This document shows positions 20,541 through 50,719 of a stretch of DNA of 64,000 nt, piece by piece. The stretch lies in NCBI GenBank assembly GCA_021772975.1, contig JAJFKY010000020.1, positions 193,559 to 257,558 on the forward strand. The letters run 5' to 3'. The notes below the pieces were generated by a model. The model saw nothing but the letters and a program-made list of their open reading frames with translations. It searched no databases and was not told the DNA's origin. The stretch is from Gammaproteobacteria bacterium (GTDB lineage Bacteria > Pseudomonadota > Gammaproteobacteria > Xanthomonadales > Wenzhouxiangellaceae). Position 1 is the first letter of the stretch. The number at the start of each line of letters is the position of its first letter. The translations under genes and the position numbers were made by a program.

Positions 20541-20628
20541 GCAGGCCGATCCTTAGCGCTTGCTTTTCAGCAGGGCTGCCATCACTTTACTGACGGGGTA
20601 AACCAGACAGTCACCAGGAGTGTCAGCC

Positions 20629-22065
20629 ATGGAATTTGATCCGGTCATGCTAGCGCGCTTGCAGTTTGCATTTACGATCTCTTTTCACATCATTTTCCCC
20701 GCTTTTACCATCGGTCTGTCAGCTTATATTGCTGTGCTGCTGGGCATGTGGATGAGAACCGGGCAGGAACGCTATCAGAAGCTGGCCAGATTCTGGACCA
20801 AAATATTTGCCGTCTCATTCGCCATGGGGGTGGTTTCGGGGATCGTGCTGTCCTATCAGTTCGGCACCAACTGGAGTGAATTTTCCCGGATACTGGGCAA
20901 TGTGCTGGGGCCGTTAATCGGCTACGAGGTATTGACCGCATTCTTCCTGGAGGCAACCTTTCTCGGGGTATTGCTGTTTGGCTGGGGCAGGGTGCCACGC
21001 TGGTTGCATCTGGTGGCCGCGCTGGCTGTGGCGTTCGGCACCATGCTGTCCGCGTTCTGGATATTATCGGCCAACAGCTGGATGCATACCCCGGCCGGTT
21101 TTGAAATGCGCGCAGGCATTGCCTACCCGGTTGACTGGTTCAAGATAATCTTTAACCCCAGTTTTCCTTATCGCTTTGTGCACATGCTGCTGGCTGCCTA
21201 TATGACCACCGCGGTGGTGGTGCTGGCGGTCGCGGCGCGTTACCGGATGGCGGATAAATTCCCCCGCCAGTCGCCCACCATGCTGAAAATGGCGATGGGT
21301 ATGATCATCGTGCTGGCGCCGTTGCAACTGGTGGTGGGTGATCTGCATGGCTTGAACACCGCCGACTATCAGCCTGCCAAGCTAGCGGCGATGGAGGCTC
21401 ACTGGGACTCTGCTGAACCGGCGCCGCTGTTATTGTTTGCCTGGCCTGATCAGGATGCGCAAACCAATCATGCTGAAATTGGTATCCCCAAACTGGCCAG
21501 CCTGATTATTACCCATGATCGGGAAGGGTTATTTCCTGGCTTAAAGGATTTTGATGTAACTGAGCAGCCGCCCGTGCTGCCGGTGTTTTTTGCCTTTCGA
21601 ATCATGGTCGGTATCGGTTTGCTGCTGATAGGGATTGGCATCACGGGGGCGTATTTGTGGTGGCGTGGTAAGTTGCTCAGCGCACGCTGGTTTATACGCC
21701 CGCTGCAGCATGTCTGGCCATTGGGTTTTATTGCCATTCTGGCTGGCTGGATGACCACCGAGATAGGCCGGCAGCCGTGGTTGGCTTATCAATTGCTGCG
21801 GACCAGCGATGCGGTATCGCCAGTGCCCGCCAACAGTATTCTGGTGTCATTGGCGTTGTTTGTCCTGGTCTACGGCGTGGTATTCAGTGCCGGTATTTAT
21901 TATATCAACCGGTTGATCCATAAAGGACCTGAACCGGAGGTGCTGACAGCGCCGCAGATGCCCACTGCAAGGCGACCGCTATCGGCTGCTGAGTCCGGCG
22001 GTTTTGATAGTCTGGGCCAGACGCAGCCGGACAGCGGCCAAGCCGGGGAGTATCGCCATGATTGA
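20629..22065 (+). CDS. cioA: Cytochrome bd-type quinol oxidase subunit I (CIO type)
   Basis: Catalytic subunit of a bd-type terminal oxidase that reduces oxygen with quinol. Multiple membrane segments and the family residues are visible: H20 (FTISFHIIFPAFTIG), a histidine in FPYRFVHMLLA, and the quinol-site motif TEIGRQPW. The periplasmic Q-loop is short, which places it with the cyanide-insensitive CioA group rather than long-loop E. coli CydA. The ATG at 20629 is preferred because AGGAG lies 8 bases upstream; a GTG at 20620 overlaps that ribosome binding site. The stop overlaps subunit II by 8 bases. Confidence 0.95.
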   Translation: MEFDPVMLARLQFAFTISFHIIFPAFTIGLSAYIAVLLGMWMRTGQERYQKLARFWTKIFAVSFAMGVVSGIVLSYQFGTNWSEFSRILGNVLGPLIGYEVLTAFFLEATFLGVLLFGWGRVPRWLHLVAALAVAFGTMLSAFWILSANSWMHTPAGFEMRAGIAYPVDWFKIIFNPSFPYRFVHMLLAAYMTTAVVVLAVAARYRMADKFPRQSPTMLKMAMGMIIVLAPLQLVVGDLHGLNTADYQPAKLAAMEAHWDSAEPAPLLLFAWPDQDAQTNHAEIGIPKLASLIITHDREGLFPGLKDFDVTEQPPVLPVFFAFRIMVGIGLLLIGIGITGAYLWWRGKLLSARWFIRPLQHVWPLGFIAILAGWMTTEIGRQPWLAYQLLRTSDAVSPVPANSILVSLALFVLVYGVVFSAGIYYINRLIHKGPEPEVLTAPQMPTARRPLSAAESGGFDSLGQTQPDSGQAGEYRHD

Positions 22066-23062
22066 CGCATTGCCATTGATCTGGGGCATTGTGATTGCCG
22101 TTGCGGTGGTGGTGTATACCATCCTGGATGGCTTTGACCTGGGGGTTGGCATTTTGTTTGGCGTAGCCCGGGCGGAAGCAGACCGGGACCTGATGATGAA
22201 CACGGTGGCGCCATTCTGGGACGGCAATGAGACCTGGTTGATACTGGGGGGCGGTGGTTTGCTGGTGGCTTTTCCACTGGCCTATTCGATCATTATGCCG
22301 GCTTTATATATACCGGTGATCGTGATGCTGCTGGCGTTAATTTTTCGCGGCGTGGCGTTTGAGTTTCGCTATGTTGCCAAACCGCATCATCATTGGTGGG
22401 ACAAGGCATTTTTATGCGGCTCCCTGACCGCGGCATTCGCGCAAGGCGTTATTCTGGGTGGCGTGCTGCAGGGTATTACCGTGGTGGATGACCGCTATGC
22501 CGGTGGTCTGTATGACTGGCTGACGCCGTTCAGCCTGTTCTGTGGTCTGGGTGTGGTGGTTGGCTACGCGATGCTGGGCGCCTGTTGGTTGAATATGAAA
22601 ACAGAGGGTGAGTTGCAACAGAAAATGCGCCGTCTGGCTTTGTGGCTGCTGCCCGGCATGCTGCTGTTTATTGCCGGCGTCAGTATCTGGACACCATTGG
22701 CTTTTCCAGTGATTGCCGAGAAATGGTTTTCACTGCCGAATTTCTATTTTCTATGGCCGGTGCCGACCTTGACCGGTTTACTGGCATTCAGTATTTACCG
22801 CGCGCTGCGCAAGCAGTATTCAATATGGCCTTTTTTAGGCACAGCGGCATTATTTGTACTTAGCTTTATCGGTCTGGCGTTCAGCCTGCTGCCACTGATC
22901 GTGCCGCCGGATATTACTGTCTACCAGGCCGCCGCGGCGCGCGAATCCCAGTTGTTCAGCATTATCGGCGTGTTGATCATGCTGCCGGTGATTCTGATTT
23001 ATACCGGGTTTATCTATTATCTGTTTCGCGGCAAAGTGACCGCGCAAAGCGGTTATCATTGA
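22058..23062 (+). CDS. cioB: Cytochrome bd-type quinol oxidase subunit II (CIO type)
   Basis: Partner of the preceding subunit; stabilises the hemes of the bd oxidase. The opening MIDALPLIWGIVIAVAVVVYTILDGFDLGVGILF and the APFWDGNETWLILGGGGLLVAFPLAYS motif are diagnostic. Roughly eight membrane segments are visible. The frame is open upstream, but the ATG at 22058 overlaps the end of cioA by 8 bases and gives the usual 334 residues. I see no CydX-like small gene after it; the next gene starts 23 bases downstream. Confidence 0.96.
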   Translation: MIDALPLIWGIVIAVAVVVYTILDGFDLGVGILFGVARAEADRDLMMNTVAPFWDGNETWLILGGGGLLVAFPLAYSIIMPALYIPVIVMLLALIFRGVAFEFRYVAKPHHHWWDKAFLCGSLTAAFAQGVILGGVLQGITVVDDRYAGGLYDWLTPFSLFCGLGVVVGYAMLGACWLNMKTEGELQQKMRRLALWLLPGMLLFIAGVSIWTPLAFPVIAEKWFSLPNFYFLWPVPTLTGLLAFSIYRALRKQYSIWPFLGTAALFVLSFIGLAFSLLPLIVPPDITVYQAAAARESQLFSIIGVLIMLPVILIYTGFIYYLFRGKVTAQSGYH

Positions 23063-23085: not shown

Positions 23086-24162
23086 ATGTCAGATTCTATG
23101 CCACCGTTACGTGAGGTACGTCAGGAAGACGGCTTTGATATTGCCGCGGTCGATGCCGAGCTCAAAAAACATATTGATGATTTGCACGGTGTGCCAGGTC
23201 TGCGGCAGTTTACTTCCGGTGCATCCAACCTGACTTATCTATTGAGCTACCCATCGCGGGAGCTGGTGCTGCGCAAACCGCCGGCCGGCAGCAAGCCCAA
23301 ATCCGGTCATTCAATGTGGCGTGAATACACCGTGATCAAAGCGCTGCAACCGGTTTATCCCGCGGTCCCCTATGTGTTGTATTACGCCAGCCACGAAGAC
23401 TCGGTGATCGGCGCTGAGTTTTATGTCATGAAACGGGTTCCGGGTTTATATTTGAGCACCGAAATTCCGGAGCAGTGGGGCTGGACCTTGGAGCACACCC
23501 GGCTATTCTGTCATGCTTTCTGGGATAAGTTGATCGAGTTGCACCAGATTGACTATCAGGCGGTTGGCCTGCAAGATTTTGGCAAACCGCAGGGTTATAT
23601 CGAACGTCAGATTAAAGGCTGGAATCAGCGCTATGCCGACGCGCTGACCGCTGACGCTGAATCGTTCGAGGATGTTCGCGACTGGCTGGATGCCAACCGT
23701 CCGGAGCAGGAAAGCGCGCACAGCATATTGCATGGTGATTTTCGAATCGATAATTTAATCCTGGCCGATGATCAGATGCGCTCGGTCAAAGCCGTGCTCG
23801 ACTGGGAAATTTCGGCCCTGGGTGATCCGCTCATGGACCTGGGCGCAGCCCTGGTTTACTGGATTGAACCGCATGATCCGGAAGCGCTTAAAGTATTGAA
23901 AAAACAGCCTTCTGATGCACCGGGAATGTTTACCCGCCGTGAAGTGGTGCAATATTATGCGGAACGGACCGGGCGTAAAATAGACGATTTCACTTTTTTC
24001 TATGCTTATGGAATCTTCCGTCTGGCGGTGATTGCCCAGCAGATTTATTACCGCTATTACCACCAGCAGACCACCAACAAAGCTTTTGCAATGTACGGAC
24101 CGGGCGCCAAAGCGCTGGGGCATTATGCAAGGCAGATTATCAAGCAGGGGATGGAGATTTAG
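23086..24162 (+). CDS. APH-fold phosphotransferase (ACAD10/11 kinase-domain type)
   Basis: Aminoglycoside-phosphotransferase-fold kinase of the group fused to acyl-CoA dehydrogenase in animal ACAD10/11. Motifs: FTSGASNLTYLL and LVLRKPPAGSKPKSGHSMWREYTVIKAL for nucleotide binding, SILHGDFRIDNLIL for the catalytic aspartate, and VLDWEISALGDPLMDLGAAL for metal. In related bacterial systems (LvaA with LvaC in levulinic-acid catabolism) the kinase phosphorylates the 4-hydroxyl of 4-hydroxyacyl-CoA. That role is inferred here. The ATG at 23086 has AGGA upstream; a TTG at 23059 is possible. A same-strand acyl-CoA dehydrogenase follows 1.1 kb later, beyond a repeat-rich insert. Confidence 0.9.
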   Translation: MSDSMPPLREVRQEDGFDIAAVDAELKKHIDDLHGVPGLRQFTSGASNLTYLLSYPSRELVLRKPPAGSKPKSGHSMWREYTVIKALQPVYPAVPYVLYYASHEDSVIGAEFYVMKRVPGLYLSTEIPEQWGWTLEHTRLFCHAFWDKLIELHQIDYQAVGLQDFGKPQGYIERQIKGWNQRYADALTADAESFEDVRDWLDANRPEQESAHSILHGDFRIDNLILADDQMRSVKAVLDWEISALGDPLMDLGAALVYWIEPHDPEALKVLKKQPSDAPGMFTRREVVQYYAERTGRKIDDFTFFYAYGIFRLAVIAQQIYYRYYHQQTTNKAFAMYGPGAKALGHYARQIIKQGMEI

Positions 24163-24189
24163 CTGCATTGCTAGATGGTTTGCAGATGG

Positions 24190-24209
24190 ATTCCCGCCTG
24201 CGCGGGAAT
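24190..24209. repeat. dRS3-like palindromic repeat, copy 1
   Basis: A 20-base unit of the form ATTCCC-N8-GGGAAT with core GCCTGCGC, embedded in a longer GATGGATTCC...GGGAATGACG context. The same consensus defines the Neisseria dRS3 repeat. It lies just downstream of the kinase gene. Confidence 0.85.
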
Positions 24210-24344
24210 GACGATAAAACTGACGCGTATCGCAGTAAAGCCGATGGGTATGAGGTTAAAGCTGGATAGGGTTAACCACCTGGGTGCTGATCATTAACCA
24301 TATCAATGGTTGGTAATGTCAACCCAGAAAAACACAACATTGTC

Positions 24345-24364
24345 ATTCCCGCGCAGGCGGGAAT
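24345..24364. repeat. dRS3-like palindromic repeat, copy 2 (inverted orientation)
   Basis: Same unit as at 24190 but in opposite orientation (GTCATTCCC...GGGAATCCATC). It sits 30 bases upstream of the GIY-YIG start codon and pairs as an inverted repeat with the copy just after that gene. Confidence 0.85.
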
Positions 24365-24394
24365 CCATCCATACTTAACGGGGCGACTGAAATA

Positions 24395-24682
24395 ATGAAG
24401 CAACCCTTTGTATACATTCTGTCTAATCAGCCGAATGGGACTTTGTATATTGGCGTAACCAGTAATCTGATTCAGAGGGTGTGGCAGCATAAGCAAAAAC
24501 TGGTGGCAGGGTTTACCACGAAATACGATCTTAACAGGTTGGTCTACTACGAGCAGCATGCTGATATGGAAAATGCCATTTTGCGTGAGAAGCAACTGAA
24601 AAAATGGAACCGGGACTGGAAAATACGCTTGATAGAGGAAATGAATCCTACATGGGATGATTTATATCAGCAGATACTATAA
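24395..24682 (+). CDS. GIY-YIG family single-domain nuclease-like protein
   Basis: A 95-residue protein with the GIY-YIG fold: FVYILSNQPNGTLYIGVTSNLIQRVWQHK holds the two paired motif segments and the catalytic arginine region, and MENAILREKQLKKWNRDWKIRLIEE supplies the conserved glutamate helix. It belongs to the small stand-alone group (UPF0213/YhbQ-like) with no DNA-targeting domain. A dRS3-like repeat lies 30 bases before the start, and an inverted copy begins about 2 bases after the stop, so the gene is tightly bracketed by inverted palindromes. This suggests the gene and its flanking repeats move or evolve together, a possibility rather than a demonstrated system. Confidence 0.93.
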   Translation: MKQPFVYILSNQPNGTLYIGVTSNLIQRVWQHKQKLVAGFTTKYDLNRLVYYEQHADMENAILREKQLKKWNRDWKIRLIEEMNPTWDDLYQQIL

Positions 24683-24688
24683 AGATGG

Positions 24689-24708
24689 ATTCCCGCCTGC
24701 GCGGGAAT
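24689..24708. repeat. dRS3-like palindromic repeat, copy 3
   Basis: Same orientation as copy 1. The surrounding GATGGATTCC context begins almost at the stop codon of the GIY-YIG gene, forming with copy 2 a pair of inverted repeats around that gene. It also marks the left edge of the tandem duplication that follows. Confidence 0.85.
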
Positions 24709-24833
24709 GACGGTTTTGCCCAGCACGATAAGTAAATTGGTTCTAGTCCAGGGTAAATTGAGGCTTGCACGAACAGTGTAAACATTTTACCAAATGCAAC
24801 AGCAAAAATAGCTGTTATCATTCCCGTCTATTC

Positions 24834-24917
24834 TACCGTCGTTCTCATCGGCTTTACTGTGATACGCGTCTGCTCTACCGCCATTCTCATCGGTTTTACT
24901 GTCATATCCGTCAGCTT
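24834..24917. repeat. 42-base imperfect tandem repeat, two units
   Basis: Units 24834-24875 and 24876-24917 share TACCG..., ATTCTCATCGG (GTTCTCATCGG in unit 1) and TTTACTGT. A third partial unit starts at 24918 and runs into the dRS3-like core at 24925. The matching stretch in the second copy of the larger duplication has only one unit. Confidence 0.8.
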
Positions 24918-24924
24918 TACCGTC

Positions 24925-24944
24925 ATTCCCGCGCAGGCGGGAAT
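24925..24944. repeat. dRS3-like palindromic repeat, copy 4 (inverted orientation)
   Basis: ATTCCC-N8-GGGAAT with core GCGCAGGC, near the right end of the first copy of the tandem duplication, followed by CCATCTTTATAACC. Confidence 0.85.
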
Positions 24945-25177
24945 CCATCTTTATAACCGCCTCACCACAATCGCAAATGCCATAATCTACCTGCGCGTGA
25001 ATGACGGTTTTACCGAGTGCGATAAGTAAATTGGCTCTAGTTCGGGGTAAATTGAGACTAGTACGAACGATGTAAACAGTTTACCAAACCCAACAGTATA
25101 AAATAGCTGTTGTCATTCCCGTCAGCTCTACCGTTATTCTCATCAATTTTACTGTCATATCCGTCAGCTTTAACGTC

Positions 25178-25197
25178 ATTCCCGCGCAGGCGGGAAT
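25178..25197. repeat. dRS3-like palindromic repeat, copy 5 (inverted orientation)
   Basis: Same core and orientation as copy 4 and at the equivalent position in the second tandem copy. It is about 100 bases upstream of the acyl-CoA dehydrogenase start. Confidence 0.85.
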
Positions 25198-25300
25198 CCA
25201 TCTTTATAACCACATCTTCACAGTCACAAATGCCATAACCTAACCAGTGGCACAATTATGCTAACCTCTTTGTTATGAACAAAACCTATTTATTCAAGCC

Positions 25301-26518
25301 ATGAACCTCGGTATCTCCGCATCAGCCGCACAACTGCTGAAACAAGTCCGGCAGATGATCAGTAACGACATCCTGCCGGTTGAAGCTGAGTACTTCAGCG
25401 AAGTCGGCAGGAGCGGTAATCGCTGGCGGCATACTCAGCGCCAGACGGAGATTCTTGAAAGCCTGAAAGCCCGCGCCCGTGAGCTGAACTTGTGGAACCT
25501 GTGGTTGAGCGATGCCGAGCAGGGCGCAGGCTTATCGACGGTTGATTATGCCTATCTGGCCGAGGCCATGGGCTGGTCGCGGCTGGCTTCGGAAGTGTTT
25601 AACTGCTCCGCGCCGGATACCGGCAATATGGAAGTACTGCTGCGCTATGGGTCCGAGCAACAGCAGCGGCAATGGCTGCCCGGGTTACTGAGTGGTCAAA
25701 GCCGCTCCGCGTTCTGTATGTCCGAGCCGGACGTGGCCTCCTCCGATGCCACCAATATCGCCATGCCGGCCAGGCTGGCAGGTGATGAGTGGGTCCTGGA
25801 TGGTGAAAAGCACTGGATTTCAGGTGCGGGTGATGAGCGTTGCCAGATTTACATTGTGATGGTGAAAACCGATCCGGATGCGGACCGGCATAGTCAGCAC
25901 TCCATGCTGCTGGTGCCGGCCGCTACGCCGGGCATTGAAATTCTGCGGCCGATGCTGGTATTCGGACATGATGATGCCCCACATGGGCATATGCATCTGC
26001 GTTTCAGCAATGTACGGGTGCCGAAAGATCACCTGATTCTGGCGCGTGGCAAAGGCTTTGCGATCGCCCAGGGCAGGCTGGGTCCGGGTCGTATTCATCA
26101 TTGTATGCGTGCCCTGGGGCAGGCTGAACATGCGCTGAAACTGATGTGTGAACGTGCTAGAAACCAGACCGCGTTTGGTCGGCCGCTGGTCAAGCTGGGC
26201 GCTAACAGCAATATCATCGCCGATTGCCGTATGCAAATTGAAATGACCCGGCTGCTGTGTCTTAAAGCCGCCTGGATGATGGATCAGGGCGATCTGAAGG
26301 CAGCCGCACCCTGGATATCAATGATCAAAGTCCAGGCACCGCAAACGGCACTGAAGGTGGTGGATGAGGCGATTCAGATGTATGGCGGGCTGGGCTTAAC
26401 ACCGGATACCCCATTGGCTGATATGTACACCTGGATCCGCACCCTGCGGTTTGCTGACGGGCCGGACGCGGTGCATAAGATGGTGGTGGCCAGGACGGAG
26501 TTAAATCATCAGCCATAG
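25301..26518 (+). CDS. Acyl-CoA dehydrogenase (ACAD10/11-like)
   Basis: FAD-dependent acyl-CoA dehydrogenase of 405 residues. Visible family segments: FCMSEPDVASSDATNIAMPARLAGDEWVLDGEKHWISGA (FAD and substrate loop), FSNVRVPKDHLIL, GRIHHCMRALGQAEHALKLMCERARNQTAFGRPL, and the C-terminal VDEAIQMYGGLGLTPDTPLADMYTWIRTLRFADGPDAVHK. This is the subfamily of the ACAD10/11 dehydrogenase domain, and the matching kinase lies upstream on the same strand. In that scheme the phospho-acyl-CoA is converted by elimination and isomerisation to a normal beta-oxidation intermediate. The exact substrate is inferred. No strong ribosome binding site is seen before the ATG. Confidence 0.93.
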   Translation: MNLGISASAAQLLKQVRQMISNDILPVEAEYFSEVGRSGNRWRHTQRQTEILESLKARARELNLWNLWLSDAEQGAGLSTVDYAYLAEAMGWSRLASEVFNCSAPDTGNMEVLLRYGSEQQQRQWLPGLLSGQSRSAFCMSEPDVASSDATNIAMPARLAGDEWVLDGEKHWISGAGDERCQIYIVMVKTDPDADRHSQHSMLLVPAATPGIEILRPMLVFGHDDAPHGHMHLRFSNVRVPKDHLILARGKGFAIAQGRLGPGRIHHCMRALGQAEHALKLMCERARNQTAFGRPLVKLGANSNIIADCRMQIEMTRLLCLKAAWMMDQGDLKAAAPWISMIKVQAPQTALKVVDEAIQMYGGLGLTPDTPLADMYTWIRTLRFADGPDAVHKMVVARTELNHQP

Positions 26519-34304: not shown

Positions 34305-37300
34305 TCAGCCCCGGCGCCAGCAAGTGCAATACCAGATCCACAACAGTAGCAGCAATGCCAGCAGCAACAGCACACGCAGCAGCAGGCAGGGCAGACAGCT
34401 GTCAGGCTTATCCGGAGTGGACTCGGGCTGCATTAAAGTGAGGTAGCGGGTGGCTTCCCGCGGAACCAGTTCACCGCGTTCGTTATAGCCGGTTGATTGG
34501 AAATAGAACTTATAGACACCCGGCTGGCCGGTCTGGATAAACCGGTTACTCCAGGTACCATCTGCAGCGCTGGCATCGGCATCGCTTCCATCATCTCGCA
34601 AACTGACCGCCGCAGTCGTTCCGTCGGGCGCGGTGACGGTAACCTGAACCTGCCCTTCCACAGCCGGCCAGCCACGATCACTCAACGCAGCGGTTAGGGT
34701 CACCGCCGCACCGGGTAAATAATGCGCGGGTAAAATCTGTACCTTGAGTTTGTAGTTGGAGGCCACGGCGGCAGCAAAGCCAATCGGCACCAGGCCTTGT
34801 TGTGGGTTGATATAAGTGCTGTGCTGGATGTCAGAATCAGCCAGAGCCTCTTTAATGGCGCTGCGGTCCCAGCGACCATTCGGCGTCAGCCGCAGTAACC
34901 AGTCACCCACGTAAGTGTTGGCTTGTGCCAGGTCCGGAAAAACCACGCGGTAAATTTTATAGGTATGCCGGCTTTTTTCTTGAATGGGAACCCCACCAAT
35001 GGCCATGCCCGGCACAATGACATCACCGCCCGGGCTGACGAACTCCAGATCATAAAAAGTTCGTAATACCGGATCATCCAGTACCAGGAAGTTAGCGCTG
35101 CGGTCAGATGAAGTGATAGTGGCAGTGTCAATGATAATGGGATCAGGGTTCAGCAGATTGGCGACATGGGTTGGATCAACCACCAGGTCCATACCGGCGG
35201 CATTTGAGAATATTTTGAAATAGAAGGTTTCCAGTTCAAACAGGTTCTCGCCACTGAGGCTGCCGGCAACCTGATGATAGCCGGCGCTGCCCATATTGGT
35301 GATGTTTTGCAGTTTGCTCGGCTCAATATCAAAGCCAAGTCCGATACTGTACATCTGCAGTTGATTATTGCCCGATCGGATGCCACCGATAACATCGTTG
35401 ATAAACGGAGATTCGTTCTCTTTGCCATCAGTCAAAACCACCATAACCTGCTTGCGATCATTTATAGCGGTTCCGATAGTGCTGGCGGCAGCTTGCATGG
35501 CGCCGCCGATGCCGGTGCGGCCCTCGGGTTTTAATCTGGCCAGATCGGTTAGTGCGGCATTGCTCAATTGCGAGGATTCAATCGCGTTTTTACCAGCCTC
35601 GGTAATCAGGTCAAAATTCAGATAGGTGCTGTTTTGTGCATTGTATTTCACCATGCCCAGCTTATCGCCGGTACCGCTTGCACCGATATCCTCACGCAGC
35701 AGATCGGTATACAGCATGGCTGCATCACGCATGGCCTGTATTTTGATCCTGTCACCGGCCGGGTCACGCATGCTGCCGCTGCGATCCAGGACCAGTGCGG
35801 TATCTATCGGTATGGGAGTGACTCCGCTGCCGGTCAGAGTGATATCCTGGTTCGGCGTACTGGGATCATTGCTGCTGACCCGCATTTGAATGGTATGGGT
35901 GCCAACCGCCTGAGGCTCATACACTTGTGCCAGGATCAGCGGATCATCACCCGGGTTGATAATGATTGAACCACTGTTGTTGAGTTCGCTCCAATGGGTT
36001 CGATTGGGGTCATTGGCGGGCGTTGTGGTAGTCACCGTTACGGTCAATGCCGCATCGCCGTCATTGTGAATGGCCAGTGCTTTTTTAAAGGCAAAACCAA
36101 GTTCCACGTTGTTATAGTCAAGCACCGTGTTAACTCTCAGCACGGGTGTCGGGTTGGCGTTGCAGAGGGTTTGTAAACTGCTGACATGCGCAGCATAGGC
36201 CGGATCGCCCGGGTTGCCGGTCGGCATGGTGCGAGCCACTGCATTGTTCAGTATGGCTGCGCAGTACTGATTAACCGGTGGTACACCAGGTATAGGCGGG
36301 GCATTCAATTTGGTGGATATTTTTGGGAAGCGTCCCGCGCCGCCGGTCTTGCTGTGACAAGTGGTGCATTTGCCGGGTCCGGTGGAACTGCCGAGAATAT
36401 TGGTTGGGCCGGCATTCTGCGGCCAGCTTGGATGCACCAGCGGGTCGTACCAATCGTCCGGCATGATACTCAGGCTGAGTGGAGTGCCGGGGTGTATCAC
36501 AAACGAGTTCTCACCGGCATGGCAGTTGGTACAGACGCCGCCCTGACCACCCAGTAATTCAGCACCACCGGCGAAATCGGTTAATGCAAGGCTGCTTCCC
36601 AGCGGAATATCGAAGGAGCGGTCGTTGCGCTGGTTGTCCCAAAAGCAGGCCTTGCTGGTGGCCTTGCCCATGCAAATGATGCCCAGTAATTCTATGTCGC
36701 TGCCCTGGCCATTTTCTTTAACCCGCGGTAACGCTATACAAGCACCTTCGGGCGCTGTGCTGATATAGGTAAACACACGTGCTTCAGTGCGTCTTTCAGG
36801 TGGTGTGCCGGCTGGACCATTGCCGATAAACTCCTGGGCGTCAGTCAGCGAACCTTGTGATTGCCAGCGGCTGTCCCCCCAGTCGGGTGGAATCGGAACA
36901 CCGGAGGCTGCGCATTCGTCAATATAATTCTGACCGCTTAGCATGGTGGAAAAACCGCGGACGTCAGGGTCTACGCTGCGTTGACTTGCGCCTTGCTCAA
37001 TCAATTGCCGCAATTGCTCATGCACCACAAATGGCTTGCCCGCCTCAGGCCCACTCAGTTGATCTTGCAGATAACCCTGCAGCAAATGGTTTTTACCCTG
37101 CAGGATATGGGCATGGTCCGGGTTGACTTCTTTGATCAGCCAGTCAAGCAGTGCCGCATTGGCGATCAGTTTGTTTTGTCTGTCCCACTGTTTGCCAGCC
37201 AGCAGGCTGCTCTGACGCTGGTCAAACTGCGCTTTTTTCTCATCATCGGCAGCCGCGTAGAGTTCATCCAGATAATACTTCTGGGTCTGCTCTATAAACT

Positions 37301-37457
37301 CTGCCGTCACACCGATTTCATTCCCATCCCGGTCAAACATTGCACCATGTCCGATAAAGGCGATTGGTTCCTCAGCACCTGCAGGGTCAGCCGCGAAAAT
37401 GATCAAGATGAGAATCAAACTGATTATCCGGCCAGCGTTGTGGCTATATTTATTCAT
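34305..37457 (-). CDS. Large exported protein with c-type heme motifs, Hydin-like domain and VWA domain
   Basis: About 1050 residues. The ATG at 37457 has AGGA upstream and gives a signal peptide (IISLILILIIFAADPAGAEE). The N-terminal part is helical. Two CxxCH heme-c sites follow, CTNCHAG near residue 309 and CTTCHSK near residue 363. Next is an Ig-like 'choice-of-anchor D' (ASPM-SPD2-Hydin) segment (LAIHNDGDAALTVTVTT), then a von Willebrand A domain starting near residue 556 with a MIDAS DRSGSMRDPAG and later a VLTDGKENESPF segment. A further beta-rich region and a C-terminal membrane helix (LLLRVLLLLALLLLLWIW) with a short cysteine/basic tail end the protein. It may be a cell-surface redox or adhesion protein; function is not known. 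Confidence 0.88.
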   Translation of the reverse strand: MNKYSHNAGRIISLILILIIFAADPAGAEEPIAFIGHGAMFDRDGNEIGVTAEFIEQTQKYYLDELYAAADDEKKAQFDQRQSSLLAGKQWDRQNKLIANAALLDWLIKEVNPDHAHILQGKNHLLQGYLQDQLSGPEAGKPFVVHEQLRQLIEQGASQRSVDPDVRGFSTMLSGQNYIDECAASGVPIPPDWGDSRWQSQGSLTDAQEFIGNGPAGTPPERRTEARVFTYISTAPEGACIALPRVKENGQGSDIELLGIICMGKATSKACFWDNQRNDRSFDIPLGSSLALTDFAGGAELLGGQGGVCTNCHAGENSFVIHPGTPLSLSIMPDDWYDPLVHPSWPQNAGPTNILGSSTGPGKCTTCHSKTGGAGRFPKISTKLNAPPIPGVPPVNQYCAAILNNAVARTMPTGNPGDPAYAAHVSSLQTLCNANPTPVLRVNTVLDYNNVELGFAFKKALAIHNDGDAALTVTVTTTTPANDPNRTHWSELNNSGSIIINPGDDPLILAQVYEPQAVGTHTIQMRVSSNDPSTPNQDITLTGSGVTPIPIDTALVLDRSGSMRDPAGDRIKIQAMRDAAMLYTDLLREDIGASGTGDKLGMVKYNAQNSTYLNFDLITEAGKNAIESSQLSNAALTDLARLKPEGRTGIGGAMQAAASTIGTAINDRKQVMVVLTDGKENESPFINDVIGGIRSGNNQLQMYSIGLGFDIEPSKLQNITNMGSAGYHQVAGSLSGENLFELETFYFKIFSNAAGMDLVVDPTHVANLLNPDPIIIDTATITSSDRSANFLVLDDPVLRTFYDLEFVSPGGDVIVPGMAIGGVPIQEKSRHTYKIYRVVFPDLAQANTYVGDWLLRLTPNGRWDRSAIKEALADSDIQHSTYINPQQGLVPIGFAAAVASNYKLKVQILPAHYLPGAAVTLTAALSDRGWPAVEGQVQVTVTAPDGTTAAVSLRDDGSDADASAADGTWSNRFIQTGQPGVYKFYFQSTGYNERGELVPREATRYLTLMQPESTPDKPDSCLPCLLLRVLLLLALLLLLWIWYCTCWRRG

Positions 37458-37724
37458 CACGGCATCCTTTTTGTTATTGGTTATGAAGCAACGGATTTGG
37501 ATGCTTAGGCGACGCTCAAGGTATGCTCGCAACAAACAGGCTGGCTTGCGGCCTTAAAACAGGGGGCTGGAGATTTGAGTTGTCAGCTTTTAACTTGCGG
37601 GCCGGTTGTGTGGGCGGGTTTACCCTCAGATGAATGGCAATGGTGCGGGCGCGGCTGCCGGGCGTTATTTTCAGCTCATCCGAATGACTGGTTGTGCCGG
37701 AATGTCAGGCTGGTGCAGCAGATA

Positions 37725-48922: not shown

Positions 48923-50719
48923 GTGACCACAACAACGTTAATGAACACGCTCGGCTGGACTTTAATTCATTTTGTCTGGCAGGGAATGTTGATTGGCTTG
49001 TTATTGGCGGTTGCGCTGCTGGCGGGCAGGCATTATCGCGGCATGCAGGCGTCACGCTATCGCTATGGCGTAGCCCTGGCGGCACTGCTGCTGGTAGTGC
49101 TGGCGCCGCTGGCAACGTTTCTCTGGCTGTGGCTGGAAACACCGCAGAAAATCATCCAGCCGGCCAATATCAATCTGGTCCTGGCCAGCCTGTCAGATGG
49201 TCCCGGGGTATTGCAGAGTATGCGCGACACCTGGCTGAGCTATTTGTTGATTGGCTGGTTTGCCGGGGTTGCCTGGGGCAGTTCACGGTTGCTGATTTCA
49301 TGGCTAAGCCTGTACATGGTGCGGCATACCGGCATCCAGCCCACTCCTTTATGGCTGCAGGAAGAATTCCGCCGTTTACGTCAGGAATGCCGTATCCATC
49401 GTTCAATCAATCTGCTGATATCCAACGTGGTGCGGGTACCGCTGACCGCCGGCTGGATTCAGCCCGTTATTCTGTTACCGGCCTCAGCGCTGACCGGACT
49501 GCAACCGGAACAAATCCGCTTGATACTGCGGCATGAGCTGGCGCACATTCAGCGTTATGATTACCTGGTCAACTGGTTGCAGAACCTGGTCATGGTAATG
49601 CTGTTCTATCACCCTGTGGTGCACTGGATCATCCGGGTACTGAATGACGAACGTGAGTTGTGCTGTGATCATGCCGCCATCCGAGACCGCTGCCGACCGG
49701 TGGATTACGCCAAAATCCTGGTCAAACTGCAGGAAGCCAGCGTACCACAACCAGCATTGGCGGCGATTGGCAAAGGTGGCCTGTACCGCCGGGTAGAGCG
49801 TTTGCTTAACAGCGAGGCGGAGAATATTGCCGCGCAGCATGATACCTCGCGTTCGTTTGCCTGGGTGTTTACCGTCATGCTGAGTGTTCTGCTCACCTCT
49901 GTAGGGATGCTCAGCAGTCCCAGCGGGCATGCCTCTTACCGCGATGTTCCGGGTATTCCGATTATCCACCCGCTCAGTGATCTGCCGGCCATCGTTGAAC
50001 TGCGTACCGAGCAGCGGGAACAGTTGATCCGCTATCACCAGCAAACCAATTTTGCGACTTTCCAATGGCCCAGTGCACTGGCGCCTGTGCCCAAGCAGAG
50101 CGCGGAGGTCAGTGCAGCCGAATCGAGCCGTACCACTCAACCCAGTATTCCGCTGTCCGAACTGCACCGTCAGATCATGCAGCAGGTGAAACAGCAGTTG
50201 CCGGACGACAGTGTTGTCCCCACGGCGGGTGTGCTGGTGGATCAGGCGCCGGTGGCGGATGCTGGCGTGGCGCAGAATATTGAGCCGGTGAATGTCAGCA
50301 CCGAACTGCCAAGTCTGTCTGAGCTGCTGGCTAAGGACGATAACAAATACTCGATTCCGGAACCTTACATTAAGGTAAAACCCGATTACCCGCGCCGTCT
50401 CAGCGGGCTGTTTGAGCATGAAGTTGTGGATATTGCCTACAGTATCAATCAGCACGGTCAACCTGTTGACCTGGTGGTTTTAAGCAGCCATGCGCACAAC
50501 GATTTCAGTGATGCCGCCATCAAGGCATTGTCACAATGGCGTTTCGATCCGGTCAGCCCGGCCATTCAGAAATTGCGTATCAGCCAGCGGTTTAATTTCA
50601 TGCAGGCGCAGACCAGTCTGGAAACCAAATGCAGCACCACCGGCGGCCGGTTATGCCCCAAGGTGGGCAAATTGATGCATCGCATTCAAGTTAACCGTCC
50701 CAACATTGCCGACACCTGA
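48923..50719 (+). CDS. M56 (BlaR1-type) metallopeptidase with C-terminal TonB-like domain
   Basis: A 598-residue inner-membrane protein. Membrane segments at both ends of the N-terminal half flank the zinc-peptidase motif HELAHIQRYDYLVNWLQN and downstream NDERELCCDHAAI. Instead of a penicillin-binding sensor domain like BlaR1, the C-terminal part is a long linker followed by a TonB-C-type domain (YPRRLSGLFEHEVVDIAYSINQHGQPVDLVVLSSHAHNDFSDAAIKALSQWRFDPV). Start is a GTG 4 bases after the blaI-type gene. It likely senses an envelope signal and relieves repression by the partner; the signal is unknown. Confidence 0.92.
   Translation: MTTTTLMNTLGWTLIHFVWQGMLIGLLLAVALLAGRHYRGMQASRYRYGVALAALLLVVLAPLATFLWLWLETPQKIIQPANINLVLASLSDGPGVLQSMRDTWLSYLLIGWFAGVAWGSSRLLISWLSLYMVRHTGIQPTPLWLQEEFRRLRQECRIHRSINLLISNVVRVPLTAGWIQPVILLPASALTGLQPEQIRLILRHELAHIQRYDYLVNWLQNLVMVMLFYHPVVHWIIRVLNDERELCCDHAAIRDRCRPVDYAKILVKLQEASVPQPALAAIGKGGLYRRVERLLNSEAENIAAQHDTSRSFAWVFTVMLSVLLTSVGMLSSPSGHASYRDVPGIPIIHPLSDLPAIVELRTEQREQLIRYHQQTNFATFQWPSALAPVPKQSAEVSAAESSRTTQPSIPLSELHRQIMQQVKQQLPDDSVVPTAGVLVDQAPVADAGVAQNIEPVNVSTELPSLSELLAKDDNKYSIPEPYIKVKPDYPRRLSGLFEHEVVDIAYSINQHGQPVDLVVLSSHAHNDFSDAAIKALSQWRFDPVSPAIQKLRISQRFNFMQAQTSLETKCSTTGGRLCPKVGKLMHRIQVNRPNIADT

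Follow-up and report, generated by a model that had tools for sequence, protein, structure and literature searches.

A GIY-YIG gene between inverted CGTC palindromes parts an ACAD11-type enzyme pair and suggests a candidate enzyme for CGTC repeats

The locus and its insert

The window examined here is a stretch of 64,000 nucleotides from a member of the Gammaproteobacteria (Wenzhouxiangellaceae; assembly GCA_021772975.1, contig JAJFKY010000020.1, positions 193,559 to 257,558), in which the genes for an APH-fold kinase and an acyl-CoA dehydrogenase (ACAD) stand apart, with an array of short tagged palindromes and a gene for a small GIY-YIG nuclease between them. The palindromes are of the kind known as repetitive extragenic palindromes (REPs), which are common bacterial repeats. 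An earlier note, made from the letters of the window alone, had placed the two enzyme genes on one strand about 1.1 kb apart, and so they are: both lie on the plus strand, both have the Pfam domains claimed for them, and the gap between them (24163-25300) measures 1138 bp. The same note had the gap consist of nothing except repeats and the GIY-YIG gene, which is right for an insert of ~1.02 kb and wrong for ~120 bp of non-repeat DNA, of which ~21 bp follow the kinase stop and ~98 bp lead up to the ACAD start. The features, in window positions, are these:

23086-24162, plus strand (ATG at 23086, stop at 24162): APH-fold kinase of the LvaA / ACAD11 kinase-domain type (Pfam APH, 142 bits)
24184-25203, no strand: the whole insert, a CGTC palindrome array with the GIY-YIG gene, ~1.02 kb, absent from the congener G001
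24185-24213, minus strand: CGTC-tagged palindrome (REP), copy 1
24341-24369, plus strand: CGTC-type palindrome, copy 2, left bracket of the GIY-YIG gene; its outward tag reads TGTC and its CCA tail points inward
24341-24712, no strand: bracketed unit of palindrome, GIY-YIG gene and inverted palindrome, 372 bp
24395-24682, plus strand: GIY-YIG nuclease of 95 amino acids (Pfam PF01541, 59.9 bits), candidate dedicated enzyme of the CGTC palindromes
24684-24712, minus strand: CGTC-tagged palindrome, copy 3, right bracket of the GIY-YIG gene
24696-24989, no strand: non-coding unit, first tandem copy (direct repeats D2/D3, 84-88% identical)
24921-24949, plus strand: CGTC-tagged palindrome, copy 4
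24990-25242, no strand: non-coding unit, second tandem copy, starting with a degraded half palindrome (24990-25008)
25174-25202, plus strand: CGTC-tagged palindrome, copy 5, at the right end of the insert
25204-25300, plus strand: retained leader of the ACAD gene, homologous to intergenic DNA of G001
25301-26518, plus strand: acyl-CoA dehydrogenase of the ACAD11/LvaC subgroup, 405 amino acids (Pfam ACAD N-terminal, middle and C-terminal domains)

The repeated motif is a 28-nt palindrome (GTCATTCCCGCGCAGGCGGGAATCCATC and its complement) with the structure CGTC-ATTCCCGC-GCAG-GCGGGAAT-CCATC, present in the gap as five good copies and one degraded half copy. Two of the good copies, inverted and with both tags outward, bracket the GIY-YIG gene. 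A non-coding unit of ~250-290 bp is duplicated in tandem, and the insert as a whole ends in inverted repeats of ~80 nt (24184-24264 and 25123-25203) that are 81% complementary. Four terminator-like matches were found in the gap, three of them the palindromes themselves and one inside the GIY-YIG gene.

These palindromes correspond to the CGTC-1 family of the 2013 survey by Di Nocera et al. (PMC3733652), which is described there, as far as excerpts of the survey go, by a CGTC or TGTC tag, an 8-bp stem starting with AT, a loop of 4 and a CCA tail; every one of these traits is found in the window. The likeness to CGTC-1 REPs, dRS3 included, extends to their extragenic position and multiple copies. 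According to the same excerpts, the CGTC class takes in dRS3 of Neisseria and RPE-4 and RPE-6 of Rickettsia conorii, and its members are apparently without a dedicated transposase, with no enzyme named for them (PMC3733652). The window differs from that account in that here, as in many homologues, a GIY-YIG gene lies inside an inverted pair of the palindromes.

Across the window's own genome the palindrome is well represented: counting up to two mismatches, the pattern has 19 occurrences and its reversed version none, which excludes chance. The palindromes are spread over five contigs, and the genome has one GIY-YIG gene of the family. A solo palindrome tagged at both ends is also present (L246 3367-3392). 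The whole 1-kb insert was considered as a single dispersed element and rejected, since its similarity to seven palindrome regions of the same genome spans 23-36 nt and ends at the palindrome.

The origin of the gap was examined by searching the window's own genome and 60 relatives (61 genomes) with both proteins, at cut-offs of 1e-60 for the ACAD and 1e-25 for the kinase. The ACAD was matched in 45 of the 61 genomes and the kinase in 46; 47 of the 48 ACAD matches were tabulated, the one omitted being a second, partial match in G040. A kinase match lies on the same contig for 37 of the 47, always on the same strand (37/37), on another contig for eight, and was not found for two. The earlier note had named genes that are never adjacent in relatives as what would count against its account; what we find is that 29 of the 37 same-contig pairs lie within 1.3 kb, including the window's own pair (1141 bp between matches), and the other eight at 3.7-6.6 kb. 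The ACAD gene comes first in 33 of the 37, and the kinase gene in four (the window, G001, G004 and G039), the latter order being that of the mammalian fusion protein.

The closest comparison is with G001, the sole congener among the 61 genomes, whose ACAD and kinase are 79% and 83% identical to those of the window. There the two matches are 118 bp apart, with neither a palindrome nor a GIY-YIG match between them, and in G004 the gap is 50 bp. The order cydA, cydB, kinase, ACAD, next open reading frame (ORF) and Usp is the same in the window and G001, and the window DNA to the right of the insert aligns with the G001 gap from about the 19th base past the kinase stop to the ACAD start (alignment score 38, against a mean of 21.2, a standard deviation of 4.3 and a maximum of 37 in 200 shuffles). 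Because of the insert-free gap in G001, the shared gene order and the right-flank alignment, the comparison indicates a once-adjacent kinase-ACAD pair that was split by an insertion ~20 bp past the kinase stop, after divergence from G001. The idea of an ancestral neighbouring pair parted by the repeat/GIY-YIG unit, put forward in the earlier note, is thus upheld by insert-free loci in relatives. That G001 instead lost the insert is a less simple explanation, because its genome contains no match to the window palindrome with up to one mismatch. At the position of the window's insert, 3' of its kinase stop, G001 has a predicted hairpin (L249 5224-5262, G001:C44:140223-140261; -14.4 kcal/mol by RNA folding, no shuffle control), and the insert may have landed in the hairpin that follows the kinase stop. 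The note had treated the unit as an incidental spacer; it does separate the genes, but the unit itself is the more novel part of the locus.

The GIY-YIG subfamily and its palindromes

To see what accompanies the GIY-YIG gene in other genomes, we compared a profile of ten family members with genome contigs and took the best 80 of at least 571 relatives, chosen regardless of repeats and carrying record titles from many phyla. Palindromes were detected as GTC followed by a stem of at least 7. Within 200 bp, a CGTC palindrome was found upstream of 47 of the 80 genes, downstream of 49, and on both sides of 35. In 200-bp windows at growing distance the count falls from 94/154 adjoining the gene to 14/148 at 200 bp, 5/148 at 400 bp, 0/145 at 600 bp and 0/141 at 1000 bp, with 4/138, 3/131 and 3/127 at 1500, 2000 and 2500 bp. 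Markov resamples of the flanks yielded a palindrome in 4 of 3160. When all 64 trinucleotide tags were scored (upstream plus downstream), GTC and its shifted reading TCA tied for the top with 96 each, followed by the tail-side readings GGA (84) and TGG (81); the next tag reached 18, and the median of the 63 non-GTC tags was 2.

The two flanking palindromes are oriented and tend to match each other. The tag of the nearest copy points outward in 39 of 47 upstream and 38 of 49 downstream cases, and an 8-nt stem is common to both sides in 20 of the 35 doubly flanked loci, compared with 340 of 1190 pairings between loci. The two flanks share an exact inverted match of at least 20 nt in 17 of the 76 loci that could be used, compared with 2.2% of mispairings, and a direct match of that length in 14 of 76, compared with 0.5%; both directions occur because the palindromes match in both. 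The bracketed unit has a median length of 377 bp (range 352-612, 28 bracketed named loci). Some homologues of the family carry other palindromes, in part longer. Four genomes with multiple copies of the gene (18 copies in all) allow the matching to be followed within a genome: a copy's own flanks give an inverted match of at least 14 nt in 11/18 (7/306 when mispaired) and of at least 20 nt in 6/18 (3/306 when mispaired), four of the 18 having no 8-nt match, and the matched stems differ from copy to copy (e.g. L222, L223, L231 and L234).

GIY-YIG genes at large do not keep this company. A census of Pfam GIY-YIG matches in 60 genomes of the phylum examined 89 genes, those left out being mostly further UvrC-type or partial matches, and sorted them into 24 family members (at least 60 bits with the family profile, the window's gene included), 38 other small genes and 27 long UvrC-type genes. 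Among those with usable flanks, a strict palindrome on either side accompanies 9/23 family members, 1/37 other small GIY-YIG genes and 0/27 UvrC-type genes, and an inverted match of at least 14 nt accompanies 11/23, 2/37 and 0/27. On the strict-palindrome counts, the association is specific to this GIY-YIG subfamily.

The 95-residue protein of the window is modelled by AlphaFold2 as a confident single domain (mean pLDDT 95.7). Its closest solved structures by sequence are the UPF0213 proteins 1zg2 and 1ywl, and its closest folds by Foldseek are 1zg2, Slx1 and 1ywl, none with an E-value below 0.001. Residues Y7, Y18, G20, T22, H32, E65 and N84 are invariant over 36 homologues and R28 nearly so. 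UPF0213 and Slx1 are thus the nearest known structures, by sequence (1zg2, 1ywl) and by fold (all three), and the difference lies in the surroundings, small GIY-YIG genes below 60 bits with the family profile not being bracketed by CGTC palindromes (1/37). Slx1 is, according to the titles of its PDB entries, a processor of branched DNA.

Protein and palindrome also vary together. Protein identity correlates with stem identity across the 78 family members that have a palindrome (r = 0.34), a value reached in none of 2000 permutations; kinship may contribute to this correlation. In 398 genomes of the same phylum, searched for the nuclease at E 1e-15 with at most 12 candidates scored per genome, the nuclease was found in 103, the ATTCCCGC palindrome in 72 and both in 34. 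The nuclease is accordingly present in 34 of 72 genomes with the palindrome and in 69 of 326 without it (Fisher p = 2e-5, not corrected for kinship). In some genomes the palindromes far outnumber the genes, reaching 490 copies in G148 and 251 in G108. A search for phage carriers of the nuclease gave no match at E 1e-5 in 50,697 records, and a plasmid collection gave 33 in 72,556 records, several of these being megaplasmids or records of more than 2 Mb, so the family is not apparently a plasmid specialty. On plasmid p1 of Planktothrix agardhii (L255), a family member has an MmeI-type restriction gene on one side and a drmA gene of DISARM on the other.

Dispersed copies with common ends were found in one genus, g137, where an element lies between the genes for Ku and LigD (identified by Pfam). 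Searching 81 genomes of the genus with a 1.9-kb query returned hits over its full length, others confined to the two flanks, and many dispersed matches to a common core of 513 bp. The first 20 of at least 27 dispersed matches, from 12 genomes, were read individually, and all 20 have a TCGTCA left end and a TGACGA right end. Over the 60 nt inward of the tag the majority base has a frequency of 0.95, and outside it one of 0.52 (left) and 0.49 (right), two copies being mis-anchored at one end in this count. Of the 20, 18 have an open frame of at least 90 amino acids that includes the YIG motif, two of these 18 being apparently frameshifted at one end. No direct repeats beside the 20 copies were seen by eye. 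Some of the copies (L387, L394, L399 and L403) lie in the middle of an older palindrome, their outer flanks being complementary over many bases, which suggests nested insertion of the elements into hairpins.

The ku-ligD site itself exists in several states. Among the 30 top-scoring loci, which are best matches and not a random sample, the GIY-YIG element is present in six, one double-CGTC-tagged palindrome in four and neither in 19, and the left anchor is missing in one, which leaves 29 resolved. A megaplasmid site in Sphingobium, between fnrL and a response regulator gene, shows comparable states. Seven plasmids have the gene, and in the three representatives aligned (TomMM7A, TomTYG46 and TomTYG73, whose gene has a 1-nt gap) inverted CGTCACCCCGGG palindromes bracket it at this site; a solo double-tagged palindrome takes its place in TomTYG64 and TomTYG74, and TomTYG72 and TomTYG65 have none. 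In Shinella the element is present in some cases and absent in others, but with a larger indel, and matches to the Rhizobium CIAT894 and K1/93 sites gave no clean empty sites.

Taken at the level of sequence comparison, these results show bracketing that is specific, oriented and matched, dispersed copies that share their ends, and alternate states of one site. They likewise show a compact architecture, a CGTC palindrome, a small GIY-YIG gene and an inverted CGTC palindrome, that recurs across bacteria.

Candidate mechanism and its alternatives

We regard it as probable that the locus is, as a whole, a two-protein form of ACAD11 split by a CGTC-REP array, the core of which is a palindrome/GIY-YIG/inverted palindrome element whose nuclease would act on its cognate palindrome. 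The wider reading is favoured with less assurance, as somewhat the better bet: the CGTC REPs would have their dedicated enzyme in the stand-alone GIY-YIG subfamily, and gene and inverted palindromes together would make up a new class of minimal mobile element (~350-600 bp), moved in many phyla by nuclease action on hairpins or cruciforms and not by a transposase. We propose this subfamily as a dedicated enzyme for the CGTC REPs, with cleavage of the REP as its presumed activity, and the elements are probably mobile, to judge by comparison of loci.

In such a scheme the GIY-YIG protein would work like Slx1 and cut its cognate palindrome, the form attacked probably being an extruded hairpin or cruciform; a substrate of this kind is proposed because this structural relative processes branched DNA. 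Repair or replication would then copy the palindromes together with the nuclease gene to new sites, and the scattered palindromes that contain no gene would be non-autonomous products. In the window, comparison with G001 shows that an array with its GIY-YIG gene arrived ~20 bp past the kinase stop and so parted the pair. A solo palindrome at an element site would be either a homing target or an excision footprint.

The enzyme pair is of a known kind, and the layout of the element is that of the REPtrons of REP-associated tyrosine transposases (RAYTs), with a different enzyme. Both place a small gene within inverted tagged palindromes and have gene-free palindromes scattered in the genome, but the enzyme of the window is a GIY-YIG nuclease and not an HUH/Y1 transposase, and the tag is CGTC and not GTAG. 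GIY-YIG homing endonucleases, a known class whose members are freestanding or intron-borne, have the same catalytic domain and a possible mode of copying through repair of the cut site; the gene of the window differs in lying in no intron, encoding a single 95-residue domain and having palindromic ends of its own. An Rfam scan of the window at gathering thresholds returned only two tRNAs and no group I intron match. Among the papers listed in searches of the openly licensed PMC literature, none links this GIY-YIG nuclease to REPs, and an earlier report elsewhere is possible. A nuclease bracketed by its own palindromes makes the question of the missing CGTC-REP enzyme addressable by a cutting assay, and, should the proposal be true, GIY-YIG nucleases would join the enzymes that drive mobile DNA outside introns.

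Several observations weigh against a dedicated palindrome-cutting nuclease that moves these elements. Neither a palindrome nor an inverted match of at least 14 nt was found within 150 bp of 12 of the 76 usable homologues, and the strict palindrome is absent from 14 of the 23 family members of the census. Among the 398 genomes, 38 of the 72 with the ATTCCCGC palindrome gave no nuclease match (at E 1e-15 and with up to 12 candidates per genome), some of them rich in copies (75 in G221, 69 in G096 and 32 in G112), and 69 of the 103 with the nuclease are without the ATTCCCGC stem, the gene occurring with other stems as well. In genomes with at least 20 palindrome copies, the nuclease is present in five of nine (p = 0.054), and the 61 relatives by themselves (3/7 palindrome genomes against 12/54 others) are too sparse to tell. 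Dispersed copies with fixed ends have been demonstrated in a single genus, g137, and what the window holds is an array instead of one clean element. As a general rule, entry into the tip of older palindromes was rejected: it fits part of the g137 copies, seven of 20 scoring at least 20 (12.6% when mispaired), but just one of 27 named loci (1.1% when mispaired), and is retained as no more than an idea; the window's own outer flanks show a mere 5-bp match in this comparison. Finally, the window's genome has a Y1/IS200-like (RAYT-like) transposase gene (L245 840-1334, G000:C20:115839-116333; Pfam Y1_Tnp, 30 bits) ~2 kb from a pair of CGTC palindromes.

This last gene bears on an alternative in which a RAYT or another Y1/HUH transposase moves the CGTC REPs, with the GIY-YIG protein in an accessory role or exploiting the hairpins. 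The tie between GTAG-class REPs and RAYTs, described in excerpts of the survey (PMC3733652), lends this some plausibility, as does the proximity of the Y1-type gene. That gene is not bracketed by palindromes, however, though no census of Y1 genes was made, and the same excerpts report no CGTC repeats flanking any tyrosine transposase gene in the CGTC-positive species named there (PMC3733652). We think this alternative unlikely. Slightly less likely still is that the GIY-YIG gene is a passenger, the association arising because REP-rich intergenic regions tolerate insertions and serve both as safe sites. Some palindrome clusters do lack a nearby nuclease gene, as in the window's genome with its single gene and five palindrome-bearing contigs. 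Shared safe sites would not, however, explain brackets that are oriented (39/47 and 38/49) and matched (at least 20 nt in 17/76 against 2.2%; at least 14 nt in 11/18 against 7/306), the confinement of the association to one GIY-YIG subfamily, or 20 dispersed copies in which gene region and palindromes have their ends in common.

A more serious contender, which we hold possible if rather less than evenly probable, is homing: the nuclease would cut solo palindromes in alleles that lack the element, and its gene would then be copied in through recombination with the flanking palindrome halves, with no spreading of palindromes by the nuclease. That GIY-YIG homing endonucleases are an established class accords with this, and double-tagged solo palindromes do stand at sites that are elsewhere filled, in two of the four gene-less Sphingobium plasmids read and in four of the 29 resolved g137 loci. 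Excision can yield the same pattern, however; 19 of the 29 g137 loci are without even a solo palindrome, and the excess of palindromes over genes in G148 and G108 (490 and 251 copies) also tells against it.

The enzyme pair and neighbouring genes

The separated pair is the secondary point of this analysis: in it, two bacterial proteins correspond to one mammalian enzyme that was characterised recently. Against the PDB, the kinase matches ACAD11 (8v3v, E 9e-43; 8v3u, 1.2e-41), 9o56 (3e-75) and also 3dxp, and the ACAD matches ACAD11 (8v3u, 1.8e-116; 2wbi, 8.8e-113) and the putative acyl-CoA dehydrogenase 4hr3 (3.6e-123). Entry 8v3u is what we take, partly on the basis of PMC12440821, to be mouse ACAD11. 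Excerpts of that report name D220 and N225 as catalytic residues of the mouse kinase domain and R626, R631, H634, R637 and D753 in the ACAD domain (PMC12440821). The comparison with the window was made by matching motifs and not residue number by residue number. The kinase has the catalytic motif HGDxxxDN, its HGDFRIDN aligning with HGDFKLDN of ACAD11; in the ACAD, GRLGPGRIHHCMR is identical to mouse ACAD11 and ADGPD is conserved, and the HCMR motif, the upstream Arg and the catalytic Asp are all present.

The pair therefore resembles ACAD11/ACAD10 and LvaA/LvaC of Pseudomonas putida in combining an APH-fold kinase with an ACAD of the HCMR subgroup, catalytic motifs conserved, and its kinase gene lies upstream, as the kinase does in the mammalian fusion. 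It differs from both in that the genes are 1.1 kb apart with no lva genes among the neighbours checked, the two proteins being encoded by separate ORFs and not by one fused polypeptide as in mammalian ACAD10/11. We consider the pair likely to be a bacterial two-protein form of ACAD11 acting on 4-hydroxyacyl-CoA, because motifs reported to matter for 4-hydroxyacyl-CoA processing are conserved and because, in excerpts of a study of ACAD10, bacterial orthologues of each half substitute for its halves in vitro (PMC11342911). The kinase would phosphorylate the 4-hydroxyl of the 4-hydroxyacyl-CoA, and the ACAD-fold enzyme would eliminate the phosphate to give a 2-enoyl-CoA for beta-oxidation.

That the two enzymes use another substrate, such as a different hydroxyacyl-CoA or an unrelated alcohol, we judge improbable. 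APH-fold kinases act on a broad variety of substrates, a breadth that favours such an alternative, and the neighbours checked are cydA, cydB, an ORF with no Pfam match and Usp, not lva genes. Set against this are the agreement of HGDxxxDN, GRLGPGRIHHCMR and ADGPD with ACAD11 and the in vitro replacement of each ACAD10 half, as excerpted (PMC11342911).

The left neighbours that are kept in order in G001 are the following:

20620-22065, plus strand: cydA, cytochrome bd oxidase subunit I (Pfam PF01654, 545 bits), 84% identical in G001
22004-23062, plus strand: cydB, subunit II (Pfam PF02322, 317 bits), 79% identical in G001

The cydB start as listed for the ORF is probably too early. A promoter scan of the kinase-ACAD gap found no sigma-70-like site where shuffles lead one to expect 2.7, and is therefore uninformative on transcription of the ACAD gene. 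Farther along the window, the minus strand at 34305-37535 encodes a protein of 1076 amino acids that has a von Willebrand factor A domain and, below the cut-off, a weak HYDIN/VesB-like Ig match, and the plus strand at 48923-50719 encodes an M56 peptidase of the BlaR1 type in fusion with a TonB C-terminal domain.

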